In this document: positions 2,386-59,052 of the stretch, piece by piece | Numbering within the stretch: position 1 is the first letter of the stretch | How the letters are laid out: every line of letters begins with the position of its first letter | Source of the DNA: Schizochytrium sp. TIO01 | Taxonomy: Eukaryota; Sar; Bigyra; Thraustochytrida; Thraustochytriidae | Length of the DNA: 64,000 nucleotides | NCBI GenBank assembly: GCA_004764695.1 | Contig: SMSO01000034.1 | Location: 2,798,501 to 2,862,500, forward strand | Direction of reading: 5' to 3' | Translations under genes and position numbers: made by a program | Notes under the pieces: generated by a model | What the model saw: only the letters and a program-made list of their open reading frames with translations | What the model was told of the DNA's origin: nothing | Databases searched by the model: none

Positions 2386-4536
2386 ATGCGACAAGATGCC
2401 ATCGATACATGGCTTCATGAGTGTGTCCTTCGAGATGAAGCCCCTGTTAATTTGCAAGGTACACTTGCGAGAATAGGGGCAAAGCAGGTAAAATACTACG
2501 AAAGTCTCTTTGATCTTGTCAGCACAGATAAGAGCGGATCCATCACAGTGGAGGAGATCTTTAGCTTTCGCAAAGTTTTGGGCATATGTACAGATTCTAT
2601 TATTCAAGTAGAGGATTGGATCTCTGCTGTCGATCAAAGCCGTGATGGAGAGATTCAAAAAACAGAATTCATTGTCTTCATGCATATTGCGCACCAAAAG
2701 GGAACCTTAGAAGACATTGAATTTCTTCGAAACGCTGGCCCCTTCAGTGCACAAAAACGAGCAAGCAGCGAAGTCAAATGGCGAGATTACATTCTTCAAA
2801 CCCTAGAAGACCCCTCGTCGTCATCGGTGGCCGGTCTTTTGAGTTTTTTCATCATCATTCTTATTTTATTGTCAGTTGTTGCATATTGTATGGAGACAGT
2901 TCCACGTGTGGAGGAGTGGGATTCTGTTATGCAGGCCCTTACCATAACTGAAATTGTGTCTGTTGCTGTCTTCACTGCTGAGCTTGTTGCTCGCTTTGTA
3001 TGTACAAGAAATCGCTTACGCTTTGTCCTGAATATTATGAATATTATTGACCTTCTTGCGATTGTGCCATTCTATGTGGACTTATATCTAAGTGCAAGTA
3101 ATCAGGACACAGGAAGTAATAGTTCACGAGCCTTGCGAGTCGCGCGGCTTACTCGAATTGCAAGAATATTTAAACTTTCACGTTATCTGAGCTGGCTAAG
3201 GCTCTACAATAGCGCACTCACAAAGGCTCGTTTTCCTTTAGGTATGGCATTCTTTGTTACACTTATCAGCCTCATAATATTTGCCTCCATTATCTATTTT
3301 GCAGAAAGAGGAACCTATGACGGCACACAATATGTGGATGAAACAGGCGCAAGGAAAGATTTTCAGAGTATTTTCGATGGTTTATACTGGGCTGTGATTA
3401 CTGTTACGACGGTGGGTTACGGCGACCTGACACCAGAAACATCCTTAGGACGTATTATTGGCGTTGTTGCACTAATAACTGGTGTACTCATTCTCGCTAT
3501 CCCAATCTCTATCTTCAGTACACATTTTGAGTACGAATACTCTGAGCTGATCAAACGGAGGCAACGTATGCAGCAGCGCAAACGAGAAGAAGAGCATCTC
3601 AGAGCGCTTCCTTCGCACGCTGAGGCAATCTTTGATGGTGTAAACCAGATTTATAATCGTCACATAAGACAGAGAAGTACTCAGTTAACAACAAACATAC
3701 GTAACAGTGCCTTTCTTGGATTGGATCGCCAACTATCTAAACTTAAGCTGGTGGCCACACGGATCTCCTCCCGGCAACTCCTCAGTCGCACAGCAAGTGA
3801 ACAAGTAAGTCTTCCCGAAAACAAAGAAAAGTTGAATACTTCAGGTGAAGAAGACCCCAACACGACTTTACTCCCGAGTTTAAGTGCACGACCAAGTCGT
3901 ACAGAGTCGCAGAACATTCAAGATGATGTTGCCCTTGCTGCTGAGTTTGTTGCGCATCTTGATGATCAGGATTTACCACCGCGTGTGGCTCTTCTTGAGG
4001 GTTTCCGTGCCCTAGAAGAAGCTCAAATCATGAGTTTGAAGCAGCGCAATAAGCTTCGCCAGATTATGTTGCAGCGCCAGATGCAGCGTATTGTCGATCG
4101 TCGTCGTGAAAAGCTTTGGCTTGAATGTAGAATTCTAGAACGAAAATTTCGCCAGGATATTATTCAGGGTATGATTGAAAGATATAGTACGTGGTTCATC
4201 AAGAGCGACGATGAATTTGAACAAGAAATTCTTCAAGCCGTTCTGCGTATTCAAAGGGTTATTCGTGGGGGAATGGCGCGCGTTGTATACTCTACCAAAA
4301 TGGTAGCCTACAGAGAGCAAGTTAGAAAACGCAATAGTCTTGTTGCTACAGAGAACCCACCCAAAGAACAGGCATTGCCCTCTGCATTTCCATCAAAATC
4401 TAAAGCTGCCGCCTCAACGGCGACCGCAGCAGCTTCAGCAGCCGTATCAGTTGCTGCATCAGCTGCAAAAACAGTAGCGCTTCAATCGTCCAGAAATTTG
4501 AAGAAAGTATCTAAACAAAATGCAAATATGCACTAG
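2386..4536 (+). CDS. Voltage-gated K+ channel with N-terminal EF-hands and C-terminal IQ motif
   Basis: A 716-residue pore-forming subunit of a six-helix voltage-gated potassium channel in a membrane. The N-terminus carries an EF-hand pair: loop 1 at residues 46-57 (position 1 is Ser rather than Asp, D48, S50, G51, E57) and a canonical loop 2 at 83-94 (D83, S85, D87, G88, E94). S1 is about 148-170, S2 182-206 and S3 212-236. S4 at 248-266 has a positive residue at every third position (R248, R251, R254, R257, R260, K263, R266). S5 is about 284-306, the pore loop 327-350 has the K+ filter TVGYGD at 342-347, and S6 is about 356-380. The cytosolic tail is long and basic, with a perfect IQ motif (IQxxxRGxxxR) at 622-632, a likely calmodulin site, and an Ala-rich end. 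Ca2+ control through both ends is inferred. Single exon; no tetramerisation T1 domain was recognised. Confidence 0.92.
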   Translation: MRQDAIDTWLHECVLRDEAPVNLQGTLARIGAKQVKYYESLFDLVSTDKSGSITVEEIFSFRKVLGICTDSIIQVEDWISAVDQSRDGEIQKTEFIVFMHIAHQKGTLEDIEFLRNAGPFSAQKRASSEVKWRDYILQTLEDPSSSSVAGLLSFFIIILILLSVVAYCMETVPRVEEWDSVMQALTITEIVSVAVFTAELVARFVCTRNRLRFVLNIMNIIDLLAIVPFYVDLYLSASNQDTGSNSSRALRVARLTRIARIFKLSRYLSWLRLYNSALTKARFPLGMAFFVTLISLIIFASIIYFAERGTYDGTQYVDETGARKDFQSIFDGLYWAVITVTTVGYGDLTPETSLGRIIGVVALITGVLILAIPISIFSTHFEYEYSELIKRRQRMQQRKREEEHLRALPSHAEAIFDGVNQIYNRHIRQRSTQLTTNIRNSAFLGLDRQLSKLKLVATRISSRQLLSRTASEQVSLPENKEKLNTSGEEDPNTTLLPSLSARPSRTESQNIQDDVALAAEFVAHLDDQDLPPRVALLEGFRALEEAQIMSLKQRNKLRQIMLQRQMQRIVDRRREKLWLECRILERKFRQDIIQGMIERYSTWFIKSDDEFEQEILQAVLRIQRVIRGGMARVVYSTKMVAYREQVRKRNSLVATENPPKEQALPSAFPSKSKAAASTATAAASAAVSVAASAAKTVALQSSRNLKKVSKQNANMH

Positions 4537-16547: not shown

Positions 16548-16721
16548 TAAGCGAACTTTACCAAGAGGGACATATTACATATGTACCTATAAGAACACAT
16601 AGGAGTCTAACTTGCTTCTCTTCGATCTATGAGTAGAGGTCAATCTTTGTCCTTTTTGTCAAGAAATAGAAGCACAAACAACATGTAAGCTGGTGTGGGC
16701 AGGGTGTCTGCTGCGCAAGCC

Positions 16722-19700
16722 ATGGCAAATCTTGCTCGAGTAATACAAATTCCTCTTCTAGACAACGCCCCTTTCCTGAGCCAAGGCTCTGCTTCCTACA
16801 ATGAAGATGTGGACGACCGGGACACCGAAGAAGTTGAACTTCAGTCCATCGACTCCGAGACAGAGCGCAACAAAGACGAGGCACATGATACTTCAGGGAC
16901 GGGTACTCGAAGACAGAAACAATGGATGAGACTTGGACGCAAACAGCCCCGCGACTCGCCTTTTGGTGGGTTCATTTCGCGATACGGCTGGTTAGTTCGC
17001 AAAGCTAGCCAATGTCCATTCCTACTCCCGTATCTTGGCCATCCTTTCGAAACGCCACGAGATCTAAATTCCTTCCTAGACCATGGTGTCGTTTATGCTG
17101 TACATGCATACCCAGACTCTAAACAGAGCCTTCGCAACGTATTTTTCTGCAAACTGCAGGACTGGACGTCAAAACATGAGAATCCTGAAATGTCACACCC
17201 TGGAGTTATTCGAGAGTTAATCTCAGATGTCGTGAGGTCTACACCAAATCAAATTCTGTCTCTCTTACGGAATATCATTGCGCAAATACTCAGCGCTTTA
17301 CTATTTCTTCATGAGAACGGAATCAGCCATAATTGTTTGCACATTAACGACATTCTTGTCAGTGGCTCAGAAGACCAATCTTTTGACAATACTACGCAAG
17401 CATCAACGAAGTCTTGCATCCATATACAAATTTGCAATTACAGTCTTCCCTGGCTTGCGGGGCGCAACGTGACCCGTGGGAACATCCTGGAAGAGCACAC
17501 CCAGACATGGCTTGAATTTGCTGCTCCCGAGGTTCTGTTTCTCGAGCCAGGGAGTATGTGCGCACCAGAAGATACATTTCACCCGCAAGGCGACGTTTGG
17601 GCCCTTGGCATGCTCCTTGCCTCTTTAGTAGGCTTTAGTGGAGACATCAAGGGGTCAGAGAGTCTTGCACTTGATCAACTCGAGGACTTTGCAAATCGAG
17701 CAGCAAAATTGGGGCAAGAACCCTACTCTTTAGCTGACGAAGTTTTGTGTGAGCTCAAAGGTGTGGATATAAACTTTCACGATCTTCTCCGTCGATGTCT
17801 TTACTTCAATCCTCAGCATAGAGACTCAGTACGGCAGCTTTTATCACACCCTTTTCTCGCTGGATACAAATTGCCGCGCATCCCAAGATATTCACTTTGG
17901 AGTGAGGCAATTGCTTGCCCTGTAAAACCGTCGTCAGTTCCTCCTCCGGCGTCTGCAATCAATCAACTATTTCAACTACGTGGATGCGGTGCTAGACTTG
18001 GAGTGCAAGATCACTTGTTGAACCAAAGATACTCAGGACAAGTATCTGAGGCTACCGCACTTCTCGAAGAAGAGCTCCGCCGAGCCATTTTTGAAGTCTC
18101 TGAGGGGAAGCCTGTCAACGATGCACTGCACAAAAGTTTAAGTGAGCCCGAATCATTAACCAAAACGGATGAGCTTAAAAACGATGCCAATAATATTTCT
18201 GAAAACCCTGAGGTTGAGGGAACCGTATCTTCTCAGCTGTGGAAGCGTGCATTAACTGGCTTGAAGTTCAGTGGTTCAAAAGTGAACCAATTGGCTTTCA
18301 AACAAGCTACAGGTGAAAACGAGCCGCTTAGTAGTACTCAGGCAAGTAACACCTCAAGTGTTCGATCTCGAGTGTCTGGACCAGCATCTGCTCACCGACA
18401 CTTTCTTCTCCGAAGAATTGTTGAAATTCAACAAGTCATTGCTTTGCTATGTTTGAACCAAGGAAACTTGCAACTTAATGTAGAGCTTCGACGACTTGTT
18501 GAACGTGCGAGCGTGGCAGCTACGGTAGATGGCGATGCGAGTCTGTCAGTCTCGTTTCGCTCTTTGACATGGCTTGCCCTCCTCAATATCCCTCTCCATC
18601 CGGCAACACCAGGATCCGAACAAGACTCCACCTCGGGCGCCCCTCTGGATGTGGCTGACTCTATTTATTTAGAGTATGATATTCTCAAGCCCCTTCTTCG
18701 AGGGGCTCACCCAGTTAATCATCAACTGGTTCAGGATATTCCCAGATGCCATCAATATCACCCGGCTCTACAATCTGGGGAAATGCGAAAGCAAATTGCA
18801 AATGTACTTAAGGCATGGGTCCTAAGTAACCCAAAAGGTGCTTATTGGCAAGGTATGGATTCTCTTGCTGCTACGATATGCGTAATGTTCCCCGGTAACG
18901 AACCCGTAGCATTTACTGTATTCAATAAATTTGTTGCAACGCATCTGGCGGGTCTCTTCACAGCGGCTTCAACAATAGATGCTAAGGTTCATGATCAACG
19001 GATTCACCAACGTCTGAGTGCACTTGAGCAAATGCTTACCTTTCATGACCCCGTATTAGCTGCTCACTTGCAGAAGCTAGGTGTGGAAATGGAGCATTTT
19101 GCGCTTCCCTGGATCTTGACAATGTTTGCTCATGTTTTGCCAATTGAAACAGTTTGGCGCATGTGGGATTTCTGCATGGTCAGGGAACCTGGCCGCGGAG
19201 TGTCCCTTCTTTGTGTGACAATGCTCGTTGAACTTCGGGAAGTTTTATTTAACTTTACAGAGTTTGGTGAAACTGTATCATTCCTTACCCGTTTACCCAT
19301 TTGTCTTGACGAGCTTGCACATCGCTGTTTAGTTCTTGCCCGGGCTGCTGACAAGCTATCACCCGAGCTTGCGCCACTCTCATGGAGTGCTGCAATATCT
19401 AAGAATCCTTCAATCACTTTACAGTCTCCATCAATCTCCTGGGAAGCAGTTTTACGTTACCGTCCGAAATTGTTTTTGGTCCGCATTGACAGCTCGGATG
19501 AAAGTCAAGAAGTAATTTCTTCAGCTACAGAGCCACGTTCAAATAAGGATGCATTTTCACCGCTTCAAATTAAAGCAGATCCCGATTTATGTTCTTCTAA
19601 TCTCGAAGAAATCGTCGCGCGATGTAGAGAACTGAGCAAAACGCAGCATGTAATTGCGCTTTTTAGCTTTGAGCAGGAATTGATCACGCCGGTTATTGAG

Positions 19701-19766
19701 CACCTGGTTACAGATCTCCATTTTCCTTTCGTATGTCTTTTAGAAGGAGTCTCGCGAGAACAGTAG
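16722..19766 (+). CDS. TBCK-like protein: pseudokinase, TBC Rab-GAP and rhodanese-like domains
   Basis: A 1014-residue protein with the TBCK order of domains; TBCK acts in membrane traffic and mTOR-linked signalling as a putative Rab GTPase-activating protein. Residues about 95-390 resemble a protein kinase but with the catalytic loop HNCLHIND at 203-210 in place of HRDLxxxN and CNY in place of DFG, so it should be inactive; the APE (FAAPEVL) and D.WALG segments are kept. The TBC domain (about 655-870) keeps both catalytic fingers: R675 in QDIPRCH and Q710 in AYWQGMD. The C-terminus (RPKLFLVRIDSSDES, HVIALFSFEQ) fits the rhodanese-like fold. The open frame extends 9 codons upstream to a GTG at 16695; the first ATG, at 16722, is taken as start. 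Single exon. High confidence in family. Confidence 0.9.
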   Translation: MANLARVIQIPLLDNAPFLSQGSASYNEDVDDRDTEEVELQSIDSETERNKDEAHDTSGTGTRRQKQWMRLGRKQPRDSPFGGFISRYGWLVRKASQCPFLLPYLGHPFETPRDLNSFLDHGVVYAVHAYPDSKQSLRNVFFCKLQDWTSKHENPEMSHPGVIRELISDVVRSTPNQILSLLRNIIAQILSALLFLHENGISHNCLHINDILVSGSEDQSFDNTTQASTKSCIHIQICNYSLPWLAGRNVTRGNILEEHTQTWLEFAAPEVLFLEPGSMCAPEDTFHPQGDVWALGMLLASLVGFSGDIKGSESLALDQLEDFANRAAKLGQEPYSLADEVLCELKGVDINFHDLLRRCLYFNPQHRDSVRQLLSHPFLAGYKLPRIPRYSLWSEAIACPVKPSSVPPPASAINQLFQLRGCGARLGVQDHLLNQRYSGQVSEATALLEEELRRAIFEVSEGKPVNDALHKSLSEPESLTKTDELKNDANNISENPEVEGTVSSQLWKRALTGLKFSGSKVNQLAFKQATGENEPLSSTQASNTSSVRSRVSGPASAHRHFLLRRIVEIQQVIALLCLNQGNLQLNVELRRLVERASVAATVDGDASLSVSFRSLTWLALLNIPLHPATPGSEQDSTSGAPLDVADSIYLEYDILKPLLRGAHPVNHQLVQDIPRCHQYHPALQSGEMRKQIANVLKAWVLSNPKGAYWQGMDSLAATICVMFPGNEPVAFTVFNKFVATHLAGLFTAASTIDAKVHDQRIHQRLSALEQMLTFHDPVLAAHLQKLGVEMEHFALPWILTMFAHVLPIETVWRMWDFCMVREPGRGVSLLCVTMLVELREVLFNFTEFGETVSFLTRLPICLDELAHRCLVLARAADKLSPELAPLSWSAAISKNPSITLQSPSISWEAVLRYRPKLFLVRIDSSDESQEVISSATEPRSNKDAFSPLQIKADPDLCSSNLEEIVARCRELSKTQHVIALFSFEQELITPVIEHLVTDLHFPFVCLLEGVSREQ

Positions 19767-26990: not shown

Positions 26991-29900
26991 ATGAACCTTG
27001 CAGCAAGCTTTGAGTATGCTCTACGTTCGCACGGCAACTCACCTGCCATTTTGCCCTGGAGGCAACCTGAAGAAAGAGATGCCTTCTTTATCGAACAAAC
27101 CCAAGGTGATACAGCAGTGCAGGAGGGCAAAGACACAAGCCCTAGCAGCATTTCCCATGCAGAGCTGGACGTCCAGACTACCCATCTTGCCTACAAGCTT
27201 GCACTCCTCGGCGTGAAGGCAGGGGATGTCGTTGCAACAACTGTTGAAGCCGAAGCTCTAGTATTTGTTTATTTAGCACTGTTAAAGGTTGGTGCAGTGT
27301 TTTGCCCTCTCTATGCATCTGATAAAACTTTAGAAGAAAAAGCTTTTGAGGTGCGTGCCGTTCTTGGCATCTACGCCTTTGAGGATCCGCCTGTTCATTT
27401 GACCCAAGACAAGACTAGGCAGAACGATGGTCAAAGTAATGAGAGCCTTACGCAATGGATCCCCTTTGAAGAGCTTATGGCAGCATCAAATCCACCTAAT
27501 GATAACATTGTTTTGGAAGGCTGTACTGTGAACCCTCAGTCACCTGTGCATATTATTTTCACGAGCGGGAGCTCCAGCGGACGGGGTAAAGCAGTGGTGT
27601 GTGACCATTTTGGATCACTTTACTCGCATGCTCATCGCAATAACATCTTAAAGCTCGATAAGCATAATGATGTCGTCGGATGTAGCTTGTTTGGAATCTG
27701 GGATGTGGCTGCAGCATTACTTGTTGGTGCACCGGTAGTTATGATTCCTTATGAGATCACACAATCCCCCGCACAATTGGCAAAGGTTATCGAGCGATCT
27801 GGAATTACACGTATCATGTTAACTCCAAGTTTGGCTAGCCAAGTATGCCCTCTGACATGTAACTCTGCACTTCGAGAAGTAACACTGTGTGGAGAACAAG
27901 TCAACGCAAGCCTTGTGAACACTATTCTACAAAGTTTAGGATCCCGAGGTCGCGTGTTAAATTTGTATAGCATATCAGAAGCCCATGACGTGGCGTTAGG
28001 GTGCTGGGATGCAAACACGGAGCTGTATGATGACCAACCTCTCCCATTGCAACTGTTTCCGCATGTAAATGTTCAAATTGACAATGAAGAGATCATTATA
28101 TTAGGTGAGCATGTTGCGAAGGGTTACCTGAGTGAATCTGATACGCTTGCTCATTCAAACATACAAGTTGGCCTTTCTGGGTCTTCATCAGCATTTGGCA
28201 TTGATCATTCCGGGCAGAGAAGGTATAAGACAGGAGACAAGGGCTACCTTACAGAAGAAGGTGCTTTAGTTGTCGAGGGAAGATTAAAGGATGCTCGTGA
28301 AGTCAAGGTGCGAGGTTATCGTGTGAGCTTACCCGATTATGAGACACAGCTGGTGGATGTACTCAATTTGCATAGTTGCGCAGTGTTATTTGACCAAGAT
28401 AAAAATGCTCTGTATGCCTTTATAGTTCCAGAACACGCGGCAAAGTGCAACAAGTCATTGGAGTTGACTGCGTTGGAGTGTCTCAAGCGCGAAAAGATTA
28501 CACCGCTTCCAAGTTGTTTAGTTTCTCTTGCAGCTCTGCCATGCAAGCCTGGGTCGGGCAAACTGGATACTCCTGTTTTGCAGTCTATTTTATATAAACG
28601 CATTCAATCTAAAGGAGACGAACAAGTGCTATCAAATATCGAGAAACAGGTGGTTTCGACGATAGCTAAAGTTTTGAATTGGGATGATGAAAGTGCGAGC
28701 CTGGACTCCTGCACTGACTTCTTTACAATTGGTGGCAGCTCATTGACTTATTTTGCCCTTCTCCAAAACCTAGAACACATTTTCAAGGTGCCCATCCCTG
28801 CTGAAGAAGTTCTCACGCTCAGCAGGGTAAAAGAGCTTGCTAGCTATATTGAGGTAAAGACAACTTTGAAGGCAAACTCAGGCCATACTCACCAAAGCGC
28901 CAGCCAAGATCAGGATGAAAAGAAAAAGGAGGTAGATGATAGACTTCGCTCGGAAATGATCCAGAGGCTCTTAAAAGATACAATGCTGGGGGATAACATC
29001 AACTTTCCAGGTCCATCAAGCACCCAAAGTCGTGTTGCATTGGTTACAGGTGCATGCGGCTTTATTGGTGCAGCAACGGTGGCGAAGCTTCTTGAAAGCG
29101 GTTGGGACAATGTTTATTGCCTGAGCCGTCGACGAATAGAAAGTAGTTCCGAGCTTTGGGCAATTCTTGAGAAGAAGCTTGAGAAACCACATCCTCAGGT
29201 GAAGCACCGTATCTTACATGAAGGCGCAGCAATACCTGTTCAAGCTTCACTGTCTCAATTGTCAAACATCGCACTGAGCTGGCAAAGTATTGGTATAGAC
29301 TGCATTGTTCATTTGGCTGCTCGTATTGATACATGTGCAAGCTATAATGCACTAGCAGATACGAACGTTATGGGTACAACTCATGTATTAGAACTTGCGA
29401 GCTCGCTAAGCCCTCACCCACGGATTGTGATAATGTCATCAAGCGCTGCACTACCGCCCCGCGGATCAGTATACGAAAAGAATCTTGGGGAAGGTGATAT
29501 GTGGCCTGCTAGTCTTCTTGACAAAGAAGCTACAGTAGGAAGCATTTGCACCAGAGATCTTTACCATGGGACTTACGAGGGTTATTCACAGACCAAATGG
29601 GTTTGCGAGCAGCTAGCTGCTCAAAGTTTACTCCGCGGGGCAGCGTGCCATGTAGTCCGCGCGTCTCAAGTCACTCCTTGCTCTCGCGAGCATGCCATAA
29701 GACTTGCACAGTTGTCTGAAAATTCTGATTCTGTTCATGCTTCTTTATTGTGCGACCTTCTTGCTGCATCAAGCTATGCTCCTGAATTACCCTCATCTGC
29801 AGCGATTTCGTTCGCACCAGTGAGCAAGGTGGCGGCAGTGATAGTAGCAGCTGCCAATTCCTCAATGAAGTATAACGAAGACTCTAAAGTTGTATCGCAT

Positions 29901-30290
29901 GCAGTATTAGCACCTGTGCCACTGGACACGTTACTTGCTCGCCTTGGGCCTCGTCCAAGGCTATCGCCTCATGAGTGGCTCTGCGATGCGCTAGATAAAC
30001 TTTTTTTAAACGACAAGGAGACTTATGGGGAAGCCAAGAGCAGATTGGCAATTGAGGAAGGAGCTTCAACGACACGGGAATATTGTAAAGTCAAGGGTGG
30101 AAGTCATGGAACATCCCCCAAAGAGGATCCAGACCACGCTAATTTGTCTTCTTCTCGCTTTGCTAATAGTCTGGCAAGACTGCCCCTTGGCGCGGAAGGG
30201 CTTTTGGGTGCTGCAGAGCGACCTTTGAGCAGTGATGCTTCCGGTGGCCTCGAGCATCTTCTTGCTTTGTGTGGCAGTGATGTAACGTAG
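26991..30290 (+). CDS. NRPS-like adenylation-carrier-reductase (A-T-R) enzyme, alpha-aminoadipate/carboxylic acid reductase type
   Basis: A 1099-residue single-exon protein with three domains. The adenylation domain (1-about 530) has FTSGSSSGRGK at 190-200 (phosphate loop), YKTGD at 412-416 with a following GRLKDAREVKVRGYRV, and a PGSGKLD lysine motif. The carrier domain has DFFTIGGSSL with S584 as the phosphopantetheine site, so a PPTase is needed in trans. The reductase domain has GACGFIG at 687-693 (NAD(P) site), VHLAARID, and the catalytic YSQTK with Y865 and K869. Enzymes of this build activate a carboxylate with ATP, hold it as a thioester and release it as an aldehyde or alcohol. Lys2 aminoadipate reductase is a relative but is about 1400 residues with an extra N-terminal part absent here. 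The A5 region reads NLYSISEAHD rather than the usual NxYGPTE. Substrate is not predictable by eye. No neighbouring biosynthetic genes. Confidence 0.9.
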   Translation: MNLAASFEYALRSHGNSPAILPWRQPEERDAFFIEQTQGDTAVQEGKDTSPSSISHAELDVQTTHLAYKLALLGVKAGDVVATTVEAEALVFVYLALLKVGAVFCPLYASDKTLEEKAFEVRAVLGIYAFEDPPVHLTQDKTRQNDGQSNESLTQWIPFEELMAASNPPNDNIVLEGCTVNPQSPVHIIFTSGSSSGRGKAVVCDHFGSLYSHAHRNNILKLDKHNDVVGCSLFGIWDVAAALLVGAPVVMIPYEITQSPAQLAKVIERSGITRIMLTPSLASQVCPLTCNSALREVTLCGEQVNASLVNTILQSLGSRGRVLNLYSISEAHDVALGCWDANTELYDDQPLPLQLFPHVNVQIDNEEIIILGEHVAKGYLSESDTLAHSNIQVGLSGSSSAFGIDHSGQRRYKTGDKGYLTEEGALVVEGRLKDAREVKVRGYRVSLPDYETQLVDVLNLHSCAVLFDQDKNALYAFIVPEHAAKCNKSLELTALECLKREKITPLPSCLVSLAALPCKPGSGKLDTPVLQSILYKRIQSKGDEQVLSNIEKQVVSTIAKVLNWDDESASLDSCTDFFTIGGSSLTYFALLQNLEHIFKVPIPAEEVLTLSRVKELASYIEVKTTLKANSGHTHQSASQDQDEKKKEVDDRLRSEMIQRLLKDTMLGDNINFPGPSSTQSRVALVTGACGFIGAATVAKLLESGWDNVYCLSRRRIESSSELWAILEKKLEKPHPQVKHRILHEGAAIPVQASLSQLSNIALSWQSIGIDCIVHLAARIDTCASYNALADTNVMGTTHVLELASSLSPHPRIVIMSSSAALPPRGSVYEKNLGEGDMWPASLLDKEATVGSICTRDLYHGTYEGYSQTKWVCEQLAAQSLLRGAACHVVRASQVTPCSREHAIRLAQLSENSDSVHASLLCDLLAASSYAPELPSSAAISFAPVSKVAAVIVAAANSSMKYNEDSKVVSHAVLAPVPLDTLLARLGPRPRLSPHEWLCDALDKLFLNDKETYGEAKSRLAIEEGASTTREYCKVKGGSHGTSPKEDPDHANLSSSRFANSLARLPLGAEGLLGAAERPLSSDASGGLEHLLALCGSDVT

Positions 30291-55128: not shown

Positions 55129-56763
55129 ATGGAGATTATGAAGGCACCGAGCGATCATCAGTATTCCATGCTAAGTTCCGCACAAAAGCCTCATCCAAAG
55201 GCCCCATACGGAAACGCCATGCGCGATCTTCTCAGTGCTGAGGAGGCTGAATATCTCCACAACAATCGGGATGCAATGGCTTCTGCAGCTAAGTTCCACC
55301 CAGATGCTAGCCTAGAGGCTCTTCATCAGGCCATTTACAAATCCCAGCGCGATCGCGCATCTCCAGCAATTTTCGACGATCGTCGCGCATTCCCAAACCA
55401 TCCAGGAACCAACAAGCATTATTCTCAGGAACCAACCCGTATGGAAAATGGCACCGACGTCACATCTGATATGGTACAGAGCTTGCTCTCGCAGCTTCCG
55501 TCCGAAACTTTCCAGTCAGGAGTAGGTATTCCCGATGGTTTTGACACTCACCCAGATGGTCTTCTCCCTGGAGGCAGCCATGGAAATTCTCGCCGCCTCT
55601 CTACGCATGCTGAAGCTAGCTTCGACGGCAAGTGGCATCCTCAATCTATGATGAATATGTCTTCACCCCCAAGGCCTGAAAGTCTCTCTGGTGGCTTTTC
55701 CCACGGGTCGAACCAAACTATGTCTGCCTTAGGTCCTTTCCGTGGCAACCCGTATGAGAACCCTGGCATGGACCAGCACGGTATGAGTGGCAATGGCCTT
55801 GTTTCATTTGATTCCACAAACCACCAGCAACAACAGCAGGGTCTCTCTAGCAAGCACATCGATCTCGATGCACCTCTCGGAAACTATGGTATGGACATGT
55901 CTTCCCGGAAACGCCCTCGCAGCCACATGGAGCGCCGGTTCTCATTACTTCCTATTGACCCCTTGGGTGGACCTGGCCAGTCTATGATCAGCGATAGCAT
56001 CCACCCATACAACAGCGAGGTCAGCTCTACCGCTACGGCCAAGACCACGATACCCGGTAGCGCGCAACACGCTGAAATGGCCTCGATGGAACATGGCAAA
56101 GCATCTTCTTCGTCAACTACCGGCGAAGACTCTGATGCCACAGCCAAGGCCTCAATCCCACCTAATCTCTCGGTATTTCAACCCTCTTCGCGACCCTCCT
56201 TGGTGCGCCAGGAAAAGAAGAGGAGGGCAATTCCCGTTGGTGCTGGAGCAAAGGCCATTAAACTCCCGGCTGATGCAGAGTTCCCTATCGGTTTGCCGAA
56301 GTCCCTGATTTCTTCTTTGAACGATGGCGGCGAACCCCTCAACCCGTTGGAGTACCAGAAATTGTTGGATTCCACAACTCTCTTGCAGTCTATGGGTGTC
56401 CATGTTTTGGAACCCTTGACATTGTACACAAAACGTGAGCTTTTCGAGGTCATGGGCTCCATTGCTGAGGTCTGGAAGAACTCTGGCAAGGCAGCTATGA
56501 AGAAGAAGATCAACAAAATCCGCTCCAATGCCCGCAAGCGCAAGGCTCCTCGCAACGTCCTCGACGATGCTGAGATTAGCCAGATCCGTGCTCTTGAAAA
56601 GAAGATCAAGGAGCGTGAACACTGGGAGTCCGAGCAGCGCAAGCTTCTCCAATCTCAACGCGACAATGGAAAGGATAACCTCGAGACCTCTTCGCCCTCA
56701 CCATCATATTCCTCCACTAGCTCTTCTCATTATGGCAACAGCATGCACTCCCACATGCCTTGA
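55129..56763 (+). CDS. Unrecognised, largely disordered, nuclear-looking protein
   Basis: 544 residues, single exon, not assignable to a family. Most of it is Ser/Pro/Gly/His/Met-rich and probably disordered. The N-terminus has a compact helical-looking segment (MRDLLSAEEAEYLHNNRDAM, LEALHQAIYKSQRDR, residues about 24-75). Three basic clusters could be nuclear localisation signals: RKRPR at 260-264, EKKRRA at about 361-366 and NARKRKAPR at 467-475. The best-ordered part is about 375-530: FPIGLPKSLISSLNDGGEPL, YQKLLDSTTLLQSMG, ELFEVMGSIAEVWKN, then a charged helix that looks like a coiled coil (ISQIRALEKKIKEREHWESE). A transcriptional or RNA-related role is a guess only. Codon composition and length make it a real gene. 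A GC-richer stretch at about 54520-54830 upstream may be its promoter or 5'UTR. Confidence 0.75.
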   Translation: MEIMKAPSDHQYSMLSSAQKPHPKAPYGNAMRDLLSAEEAEYLHNNRDAMASAAKFHPDASLEALHQAIYKSQRDRASPAIFDDRRAFPNHPGTNKHYSQEPTRMENGTDVTSDMVQSLLSQLPSETFQSGVGIPDGFDTHPDGLLPGGSHGNSRRLSTHAEASFDGKWHPQSMMNMSSPPRPESLSGGFSHGSNQTMSALGPFRGNPYENPGMDQHGMSGNGLVSFDSTNHQQQQQGLSSKHIDLDAPLGNYGMDMSSRKRPRSHMERRFSLLPIDPLGGPGQSMISDSIHPYNSEVSSTATAKTTIPGSAQHAEMASMEHGKASSSSTTGEDSDATAKASIPPNLSVFQPSSRPSLVRQEKKRRAIPVGAGAKAIKLPADAEFPIGLPKSLISSLNDGGEPLNPLEYQKLLDSTTLLQSMGVHVLEPLTLYTKRELFEVMGSIAEVWKNSGKAAMKKKINKIRSNARKRKAPRNVLDDAEISQIRALEKKIKEREHWESEQRKLLQSQRDNGKDNLETSSPSPSYSSTSSSHYGNSMHSHMP

Positions 56764-57860
56764 GTTTACTCGCACCTATTTCCAAAACCACAAATCTCTT
56801 GGGTCTTCAATCTGCTAGGTTTCTGTACGCGCCAAGCACTACGGAGATATACATACCTGTATATATATCTGCCCGCTTCACCTCGTACTTGCCTGTCAAA
56901 TATTGTCTTGCTCGAAAGTCACATAAACTAAGAGCAGGAGCCTGATGTTAACTCTTATAGTCCTGCAGATTGTTGTTCTCATTGAGCATATTTCACTACT
57001 GCAGTGCATTCGACAACAAGTCTCCGTGCAAAAGATGATTTGAATATTATATAAGAGGATACAATCCTTTTTGCTGGTGATCTGTTATTGCTGTTGCTGC
57101 TGTGCGCATATTATTTTTGTCACCCTTATAATTCCCAAAAACTGATGTTGTTCTCCGTGTTTATTGATCTCCTTCGCTCCCTTGAATCAGAAGTTCTGCA
57201 GTACTACATTTCTCGATGCATTATCTTGCTCTTGCCCCAACTCATGCTCGCTTGTTATGATAATGAAGAATTAGTGGTAGTGGTACTTCCCTTTAGCTAG
57301 TTTTCTTTCATGCAAAGACCGCCTCCGCTTCAGCTTATCTCAGTTACCACAAGCTCCGACTGCAAGTCCAACTCCAACTCCAAGTCCAACTCCAGCTCCG
57401 CCAACTCTCCCTTCGTGACGCAAGCAGAGACCACCCGGCCCTCGTCCTGTTCTGGGTTTGCTTGTTCTTGTTGTACCTCTTGGTTTCTCACATCGCCGAA
57501 CTATTGGCTCTTTGTAGTGCGCAAAGTCCTCGCGCAAAGCGCTTTTCACTGCGCAAAGTCCTCGCGCAATCCACACCTTCTTTTGCGCGTTGACTCAGCG
57601 CCGGTCCGGTGTACTTTTCAACTTTCACAGGTACTTACCCACCTCCCCCCAACATTCCGCCCCTCTGCTCGCTGCGGACGTTTGGGCTCACGATTCTCTT
57701 GAGGCTTCTCCTTCGAAATTGCTACCTCGAGCCTGAAGAACTGGATTCGCTGAGATGTTTGATCTTGAATTCGAAGCTTCATGAAAGACCTTCCTACTCT
57801 GAACGACCAAGAGTCGCCACTGACTATACCTTATTTAATGATGTGGACCGAAGCTTTTAT
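56764..57860. other. Intergenic region with a GC-rich promoter-like patch
   Basis: About 1.1 kb. The first half is AT-rich. From about 57310 it is GC-richer, with Ser/Pro-type open frames that overlap one another on both strands, and a duplicated 19-bp element. No gene supported. Confidence 0.45.
57519..57569. repeat. Duplicated 19-bp element rich in GCGCAAA
   Basis: GCGCAAAGTCCTCGCGCAA at 57519-57537 and 57551-57569, exact, with 32-bp period. Each copy carries two GCGCAA cores; the reverse TTTGCGC resembles E2F sites. Confidence 0.9.
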
Positions 57861-58287
57861 AGGGGTAGGTATGTATTTACAACCTTGGCATCACCTGATA
57901 CTGCAAACCAGCCTGATCAAGACCACAGCATTGCCCCCCCCCCCCACTCTACCAAAGATGCATAAGGTACCGTCAAAGCCGCCATCGTCCTAAGTCATCT
58001 CCTGTAGTGGCTTCTTCTCCATTGGGAAAATTCGGCACAAGGTCTAAGACCGACTACTACACATGAGCAATACTACTGTACCGATGAAAGCATTAGAACT
58101 TATATAACCTCAAAATGGCAGAGTCTATTCCATATAAATGATGTATTGTAAGTATCTAGGTTGGTTAAGAAGTGAGGTAAGAAAATGGCATGGCCAAGGA
58201 ACCACCAATCTCCATACTCTGCAAGTGAAGCAAACCCAGACGCCTCAGCCGTCTACGAAGACATCGGTAACGGGGTCAACTTCAATA

Positions 58288-58654
58288 GATCGGGCTTGCT
58301 GGACTACCGAGATTCACCGCAAGCTTGCAATTTGGCTCGGTGAAAGCTACGGTATTATCCATTTGCCTAAACTTCACACCTCACCAAGTTAACACGACGA
58401 ATCTGAATCAAGACAGCTCGAATGATTTGTCTTTGGCTTTTGGCAAGCACTCATTCACAAAATCGAGCTTTTCCTTTGGTGTAAACTGGTTACTTGCCGA
58501 GAGGGTTATACTTCCACAGCATGCAATGAATGTGGCAGAAGCTCGGGACATCCAAGGTTCTCAAATTCCCAAATGCAAATACGAAATCGATCGCGATATC
58601 CACGCCACCAGAGGCATCATTTTGCACTATCTGTCCAATAACAACATGAATTAG
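58288..58654 (+). pseudogene. Decayed TnpB/Fanzor RNA-guided nuclease, C-terminal half
   Basis: Four blocks diagnostic of the TnpB/Fanzor family occur in order. Block 1 (58309-58389): EIHRKLAIWL then ESYGIIHLPKLHTS, the helix-strand H.KLA..L...Y.vI.LPkl.TS. It ends in a stop at 58390. Block 2 (58413-58436, another frame): TARMICLW, the conserved TAR segment. Block 3 (58501-58536, frame of block 1): EGYTSTACNECG, the second RuvC catalytic Glu plus the first zinc-ribbon CxxC. Block 4 (58562-58654, third frame): IPKCKYEIDRDIHATRGIIL, holding one Cys of the second pair and the third RuvC Asp region, with RG in place of the usual RN. At least three frame changes, a stop and a missing zinc Cys make it inactive. 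The catalytic Asp of RuvC I was not found with confidence. The IDRD...R.I.L.YL ending resembles the IS607-type TnpB found in protists and giant viruses. Confidence 0.82.
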
Positions 58655-58709
58655 AAATTGTCCTTGAGTCGCGGGACAGTTTTCATAGCCTGCGATCGGG
58701 TCTGAGCCC
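58655..58709 (+). ncRNA. Possible omega-RNA scaffold remnant 3' of the nuclease
   Basis: Directly after the TAG (58652-58654), bases 58655-58663 pair with 58674-58682 as a 9-bp stem (one G-U) closing a 10-base loop. A second short GC stem pairs 58698-58701 with 58706-58709 around a CTGA loop. TnpB and Fanzor guide RNAs arise from the end of the ORF and the DNA just 3' of it, so position fits. Structure read by eye; expression unknown. Confidence 0.3.
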
Positions 58710-59052
58710 ACTTGGTTACCATAGGGAATGAAGGTTTTGCAAACCTTAAAGATGATTATAAGTGATGATGCCTAATTCAAGAAGAGAAATTGGGCATAGT
58801 GAACTAAAGAAAGTACTCAAAAAGAAAGTTGTAAAGGAGATAATAAGATATGGATTTGCAAATAGGACTCAGAAAACAATTTGGTACTACCTAGCATCTA
58901 TTATCATTAATTACTAGAAGGTAGCAAGGCCTATCATAGGAATTTGATCCCTCGTCATAATGTGTCTGCTTTTGCTTCGGGTGGTGGCCGCAGAGCAGAC
59001 CTCTTGGAGCATCTCTTGGAGCATTCTTTGCATCTGAAGAGCGCTGAGAAGG

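Follow-up and report, generated by a model that had tools for sequence, protein, structure and literature searches.

Results

An IS607/Fanzor2 fossil with both ends

The stretch of DNA analysed here, which we call the window, comprises 64 kb of the Schizochytrium sp. TIO01 genome (contig C33:2798501-2862500; assembly of 64.06 Mb in 37 contigs). At 58081-58765 on its plus strand lies a decayed element in which a left end, remnants of a transposase gene (tnpA), remnants of a TnpB/Fanzor gene and a right end follow each other, with two deletion junctions between them (Table 1). This element is denoted the window copy; EL21 denotes the intact reference element (L021:2756-4961), and L-numbers are loci of this genome unless stated otherwise.

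Table 1. Features of the window copy (window coordinates) and the basis on which each was placed
Feature	Position	Strand	Basis
Whole decayed non-autonomous IS607/Fanzor2 element, ~685 bp	58081..58765	+	28 aligned short copies
Left end (LE) and 5' non-coding part	58081..58184	+	Aligned to first 114 bases of EL21
TnpA remnant, residues 1-17	58185..58235	+	tblastn, collinear, E 0.23 alone; inside DNA match to EL21 50-166
Deletion junction 1 (EL21 ~166 joined to ~437), common to L010-L013	58234..58237	+	blastn breakpoints, gap fractions
TnpA remnant, residues ~109-130, part of serine-recombinase domain	58236..58299	+	tblastn, E 5e-7
Deletion junction 2 (EL21 ~516 joined to ~1712), common to short family	58300..58309	+	
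TnpB/Fanzor remnant: RuvC-II region, broken frames	58306..58536	+	tblastn, E 4e-27; translations
TnpB/Fanzor remnant: fourth zinc-finger Cys, RuvC-III (IDRD), C-terminus, stop position	58568..58654	+	tblastn, translations
Right end (RE), hairpin remains of putative guide (reRNA/omegaRNA) scaffold	58655..58765	+	RE alignments

When the window was searched with the intact TnpB of the same genome (tblastn), this locus gave the best match (58210-58536 and 58568-58642, E 4e-27), and all other matches had E values of at least 0.22. The TnpA protein matched at 58224-58316 (E 5e-7) and, collinearly, at 58185-58235 (E 0.23 on its own). At the DNA level the intact element matched in three collinear pieces, 58306-58707 (142 bits), 58128-58236 (79.7 bits) and 58234-58285 (68.0 bits), with 0.27 kb and 1.2 kb of the intact element absent between them, and the best score in 200 dinucleotide shuffles of the element was 35.6 bits. 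Chance, which the initial annotation had already called a poor explanation, is therefore practically eliminated here, as is a mixture of remnants of unrelated proteins: three collinear pieces of one and the same element would not be expected from either.

That annotation had reported a decayed TnpB/Fanzor nuclease of IS607 type in a eukaryotic chromosome at 58288-58654, on the basis of four signature blocks. All four are present in the translations, on the plus strand, in the correct order and in three different frames; the family, the IS607 type, the fossil state and the eukaryotic chromosome were all upheld. The loss of a zinc-binding cysteine was also borne out, as three of the four are kept (the first pair as CNECG) and where the intact copies have their third Cys, the window copy has a codon for Phe. 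The signatures are real but the element is larger than the reported interval, and the description as TnpB, correct for that half, left out the TnpA remnants and both ends.

The extent of the element was also apparent from its repeats elsewhere. Window-copy DNA matched the rest of the genome with E values down to 6e-97, and with 57600-59000 as query the other scored places (40 of 197 candidates) matched only within 58069-58755; in these genome DNA searches 160-234 candidates passed the first stage and 40 were scored each time. The left boundary at 58081 is accurate to a few bases, the preceding TGTA being likewise common to many copies. One genome site of the 23-base LE pattern (up to 3 mismatches), C33:2856590, corresponds to window position 58090.

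An intact full-length family in the same genome

A genome search for the zinc-ribbon family TNB returned 34 matches with E values up to 0.001. The 15 best places scored 54-55 bits; the open frame that holds the match measures 615-682 aa at 14 of them and 290 aa at the other. Comparison of 18 fetched loci of 9.9 kb each yielded an element of about 2.2 kb, of which 16 other long copies are 88.6-99.0% identical to the L021 copy; these include L023, without the 5' end, and L037, without the 3' end. The remaining locus, L038, holds a short copy. The right end of the full-length element is sharp (CTAAGAG) and its left end begins near ACAAAA, with GTATG just outside it in 5 of 15 copies.

The first gene, tnpA, encodes an IS607 transposase of 232 aa (NCBIfam transpos_IS607, 144.9 bits against a cut-off of 110; Pfam Resolvase, 72.5 bits), in which HTH_17/MerR matches below their cut-offs precede the resolvase domain and whose best solved relatives are ISC1926 and ISC1904. 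TnpB has 492 aa from one possible start, in a frame that overlaps tnpA; in L021 (2862-4847 and 2870-3568) it is the second part of tnpA that tnpB overlaps, in a different frame. The intact relatives that the initial annotation had expected elsewhere in the genome do exist: among 16 copies examined (L023 included) both frames are open in 8, TnpB is open and TnpA broken or cut in 6, and TnpB is broken in 2. This IS607/Fanzor2 family is recent, and its transposase, nuclease and right end occur side by side in intact form.

Four copies (L025, L027, L029 and L037), on four different contigs and with unlike flanks, share an insert of 294-295 bp inside tnpA (2841-3135 of the element-oriented locus in L025), which contains CCTAA repeats. 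The TnpB frame is open in the first three, and L037 is truncated on the 3' side. These copies are a second, young non-autonomous line in which tnpA is broken. We also considered a spliceosomal intron for the 295-bp insert and rejected it, since the insert lacks GT..AG ends where the alignment places it.

The family is also old in this genome, because full-length fossils are present: L018:1501-3470 is 69% identical to the intact element over 1960 bp, and L050 is 80.5% identical over positions 26-2206. At L028:2361-2571 and L034:7983-8202 old copies adjoin young full-length members of the family that point the other way.

The nuclease is a Fanzor2-type TnpB

Intact TnpB passes the Pfam cut-off for Cas12f1-like_TNB (51.1 bits, cut-off 26.3) and that for HTH_OrfB_IS605, and falls under the NCBIfam cut-offs for guided_TnpB (95.8 against 100) and IS607_TnpB (62.8 against 350). 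Its closest solved structure is TnpB-like protein L79 (9b0l, E 2e-18), which we take to be a mimivirus protein. The intact copies carry the C4 zinc finger of Fanzor2 (TNB domain) and the RuvC-I motif DPG, as ALDPG, in the region that is deleted in the window copy. Six residues before the zinc finger stands a glutamate, in QESYTSKTC in intact copies and in REGYTSTAC in the window copy (codon at 58501-58503). Passages of PMC10711439, where this alternative glutamate is defined, give DPG together with it as the fingerprint of Fanzors.

The partner gene fits the same assignment. The intact relatives encode a serine-recombinase TnpA with an N-terminal DNA-binding domain, as expected of IS607, and the window copy holds remnants of it; this is neither the Y1 (HUH) TnpA of IS200/IS605 nor the setting of Fanzor1, which is carried by eukaryotic transposons other than IS607. 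The IS607 association and the fingerprint together identify TnpB as Fanzor2.

Relatives were found mainly in cyanobacteria. A scan of genome contigs confirmed 31 loci, 29 cyanobacterial according to their record titles and 2 from Poribacteria, with a query alignment of host TnpB and a Microcoleus phage protein that leans the scan towards cyanobacteria; 9 of the 29 come from one Arthrospira chromosome. Read for motifs, 27 of the 31 carry the glutamate ahead of the zinc finger, 23 have DPG and 3 more DRG. These cyanobacterial pro-Fanzors thus resemble the protein studied here as IS607 TnpBs with DPG and the alternative glutamate, but they reside in bacterial hosts and are 26-43% identical in the best segment. 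The phage protein (L061:1222-2904), annotated as hypothetical, is a relative of eukaryotic Fanzor2 with 37% identity. Viral contigs gave no relative when scanned with the single TnpB protein and one (L063) when scanned with the two-row alignment. In a tree of 20 rows, whose root is arbitrary and for which the program warned of meeting long branches, the host proteins fall with the cyanobacterial, phage and viral-contig rows, and Thermus and Staphylococcus TnpB stand apart (100/100).

A short non-autonomous family with shared deletions

Among 33 stretches compared, 28, window copy included, could be aligned as a short family. We omitted the full-length fossils L018 and L050, L019 (left part unmatched) and a single stretch from each of L028 and L034; these last two are further deleted copies with different breakpoints. 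None of the 28 copies has any match to the middle of the element (EL21 ~517-1711, 1.2 kb), a deletion that takes away the TnpB RuvC-I region and, from TnpA, the second part of its catalytic domain; the set was collected with short-family queries rather than at random, so that sharing of this main deletion is partly chosen. In 23 copies (type A) only the middle is missing. The other five (type B: L010-L013 and the window copy) also lack EL21 ~166-437, about 270 bp of tnpA, the gap fraction over EL21 180-430 being 1.00 in type B and 0.12-0.24 in the other 23 copies. The 13 junction letters of the window copy are found with at most 2 mismatches in 18 of 28 copies and in none of 28 shuffled ones (minimum 3), against 4 mismatches in the intact reference; the other 10 short copies have decayed at these letters.

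The deletions are shared with unlinked copies, and the match around the window copy is confined to the element; the deletions are therefore older than the insertion. A full-length IS607/Fanzor2 element that inserted here and then decayed in place, through deletions and frameshifts of its own, would have precedents in L018 and L050. It is nevertheless very improbable, since independent decay would not repeat both deletions in unlinked places. Most likely, to judge from the alignment, the window copy arrived already without RuvC-I, most of TnpA and any intact gene. The "decayed nuclease" of the initial annotation accordingly stands as a TnpB/Fanzor fossil and not as a nuclease gene lost at this site, because the internal deletions are common to copies elsewhere.

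The family has many copies. The 23-base core of the short-family LE occurs at 40 genome sites (up to 3 mismatches) compared with 0 for a reversed control, and the RE core at 118 places, full-length copies included (up to 3 mismatches), compared with 1.

Neutral decay, probably after a burst

Over the right half, pairs of type A copies average 0.751 identity (253 pairs), pairs of type B copies 0.750 (10 pairs) and mixed pairs 0.749 (115 pairs). Such star-like identities of about 75% suggest a single burst. Among the short copies the three codon positions differ by.253/.214/.221 in the TnpB part and.241/.226/.232 in the TnpA part, and the intact reference differs from them by.252/.190/.401 in the TnpB part. 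The third-position excess against the reference, with none among the short copies, indicates a line that was coding before and neutral afterwards. Since then the short copies have decayed without coding or RNA constraint, and nothing in the present sequence of the window copy points to a function.

The same data bear on whether the short copies encoded a useful protein, for which a repressor made by fusing TnpA to TnpB would be an example. In favour of this, stops are not in the majority at any well-filled codon of the two partial frames (highest 8 of 27). However, the codon positions diverge alike, the longest ATG frame among the 28 copies is 156 aa, and the junction measures 33 letters in 15 of 28 copies, one letter beyond an in-frame join, the rest having small indels. 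An in-frame fusion was rejected on this junction length, and we regard a useful protein of any such kind as extremely unlikely.

Structure of the right end

Single folds of the right end gave z scores of -4.5, -6.1 and -1.0 in the full-length copies L021, L031 and L036, of 0.3, -2.2, 0.8 and -2.8 in four short copies, and of -0.15 in the window copy, whose right end folds no better than shuffles. Alignment of the 17 full-length right ends (14 distinct) kept 95.8% of pairs compared with 95.0% in shuffled alignments, a value reached by 0 of 500 shuffles; on stricter measures the observed number was reached by 201 of 500 (pairs changed on both sides) and 109 of 500 (further pair types). As evidence of a functional RNA in the full-length right ends, these counts would be weak to moderate. 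At the gathering thresholds, Rfam gave no match.

In 22 old right ends, 21 short ones plus the old full-length L018, 78.0% of pairs are kept compared with 77.9% in shuffles, in a set that leans towards better-kept ends, L010, L015, L020, L052, L054, L056 and L060 having been omitted with hairpins lost or interrupted. RNAalifold predicted no pairs on the short right ends. Because of this null prediction and a pair count no higher than in shuffles, there is no support for selection having acted on the RNA of the short copies once they had inserted; the hairpins themselves are inherited, since sliding the partners lowers pairing to 34-44%.

These results also weigh on a second role that could be proposed for the short elements, namely as parasites that supplied an RE guide RNA to TnpB in trans rather than gaining TnpA mobility alone. 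The founder did keep the right end with its hairpins and some 400 bp of tnpB that TnpA would not obviously need, and the RE core places (118, as above) far outnumber the 15 strong TnpB places. The right end is needed for TnpA anyway, though, one founder deletion cannot show selection, and pairs in short copies are kept no better than in shuffles, so that we consider this role unlikely. Put most specifically, the short family would have been gene-less guide donors to a living Fanzor2, each with its own flank as guide, and the window copy a dead member; we give this a small chance. In that case the Fanzor guides of a single genome would have formed a dispersed array.

Ends and flanks

Inspection of the ends revealed no terminal inverted repeats, as in IS607 and unlike MITEs. 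An inverted-repeat scan found none joining the ends of the L021 element among the 25 of 36 pairs listed, and one 15-nt pair of 80% near the ends of the window copy. The end-to-end complement score was 11 for L021 (reached by 6 of 300 shuffles) and 7 for the window copy (96 of 300); pairing between the ends of the element is at most weak and imperfect.

The two flanks of one copy have slightly longer words in common than re-dealt flanks do, with a mean length of 4.13 compared with 3.33 for 15 full-length copies (reached by 1 of 1000 re-dealings) and of 3.75 compared with 3.30 for the 24 short copies (reached by 6 of 1000). Their place changes from copy to copy, and we saw no duplication of constant length or place. 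The excess counts against a clean IS607 insertion; it could reflect irregular short duplications or simply a similar composition of both flanks. The full-length copies L022, L031 and L026 have short direct repeats close to their two ends, in excess of what re-dealing produces, with an 8-base direct repeat in the flanks of L022; these are perhaps irregular target duplications or crossovers at left-end-like sites. IS607 elements are expected to insert through crossover at a matching dinucleotide, with no duplication of the target site; GT or TG lies near both ends in part of the copies. A joined-flank search for empty sites of 4 copies found none and matched only the copies' own flanks, which implies that the flanks of these 4 copies are unique.

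Discussion

We propose that 58081-58765 very probably belongs, as a dead copy, to a short non-autonomous family of IS607 elements and was once mobilised in trans by TnpA. The genome holds a 2.2 kb element with an IS607 serine transposase gene and an overlapping Fanzor2-type tnpB, for an RNA-guided nuclease of the CRISPR-ancestor type; its copies are nearly identical, and part of them are intact. A short version has lost 1.2 kb between both genes, and a sub-type, to which the window copy belongs, lacks another 270 bp of tnpA. TnpA from full-length copies may have recognised both ends of this short version and carried it to other sites in a single burst, presumably by the serine-recombinase route that passages of PMC4058570 and PMC6188088 describe for IS607. 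Movement in trans is supported by the four copies with the tnpA insert, because they lie on different contigs. As the IS607/Fanzor literature would suggest, intact TnpB guided by an RNA of right end plus flank may cut target DNA, favouring retention of the element.

Eukaryotic IS607 elements with Fanzor2 are already known, among them ACa-1/-2, ISvMimi and ISvAR158 (passages of PMC3627910 and PMC10711439). The present family resembles these elements in combining a TnpA serine recombinase with a TnpB-type nuclease without terminal inverted repeats, in having DPG with the alternative glutamate, and in its foldable right end. It differs from them in its host, in the short, gene-less and decayed state of the window copy, and in irregular flank repeats at some copies. 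The non-autonomous Fanzor1 families CRe-1,2,3 of Chlamydomonas are, in the sections of PMC3627910 that describe them, likewise internally deleted derivatives of a Fanzor-carrying element; those are Helitron-type elements with Fanzor1 and TSDs, however, whereas the family here has Fanzor2 in IS607. MITEs are likewise short, internally deleted, multi-copy and presumably moved in trans, but have the terminal inverted repeats that the short family lacks. Our literature search returned no paper combining thraustochytrids and Fanzor, and eukaryotic IS607 families with internal deletions are not described in the titles and passages searched.

On its own the fossil is unremarkable transposon debris, and the full-length family is the more useful discovery. 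An intact family stands beside relatives with a broken TnpA and beside an older, many-copy non-autonomous family, which offers a natural setting in which to ask what an RNA-guided nuclease does for a eukaryotic transposon.

Scanned against Pfam, 8 of 9 window frames match, with adaptin, ALG11 and RabGAP-TBC among the families found. Upstream of the element lies an open frame of 544 aa (55129-56763) with no Pfam match. The frame at 26991-30290 combines AMP-binding, carrier and NAD-binding reductase domains and presumably encodes a protein like carboxylic-acid reductase, and a single frame at 16695-19766 has Protein-kinase and TBC domains, which we take to be TBCK-like. In this genome two PfaD-type domains lie in frames of 2044 and 1647 aa, which we assume to fit the PUFA synthase of thraustochytrids.
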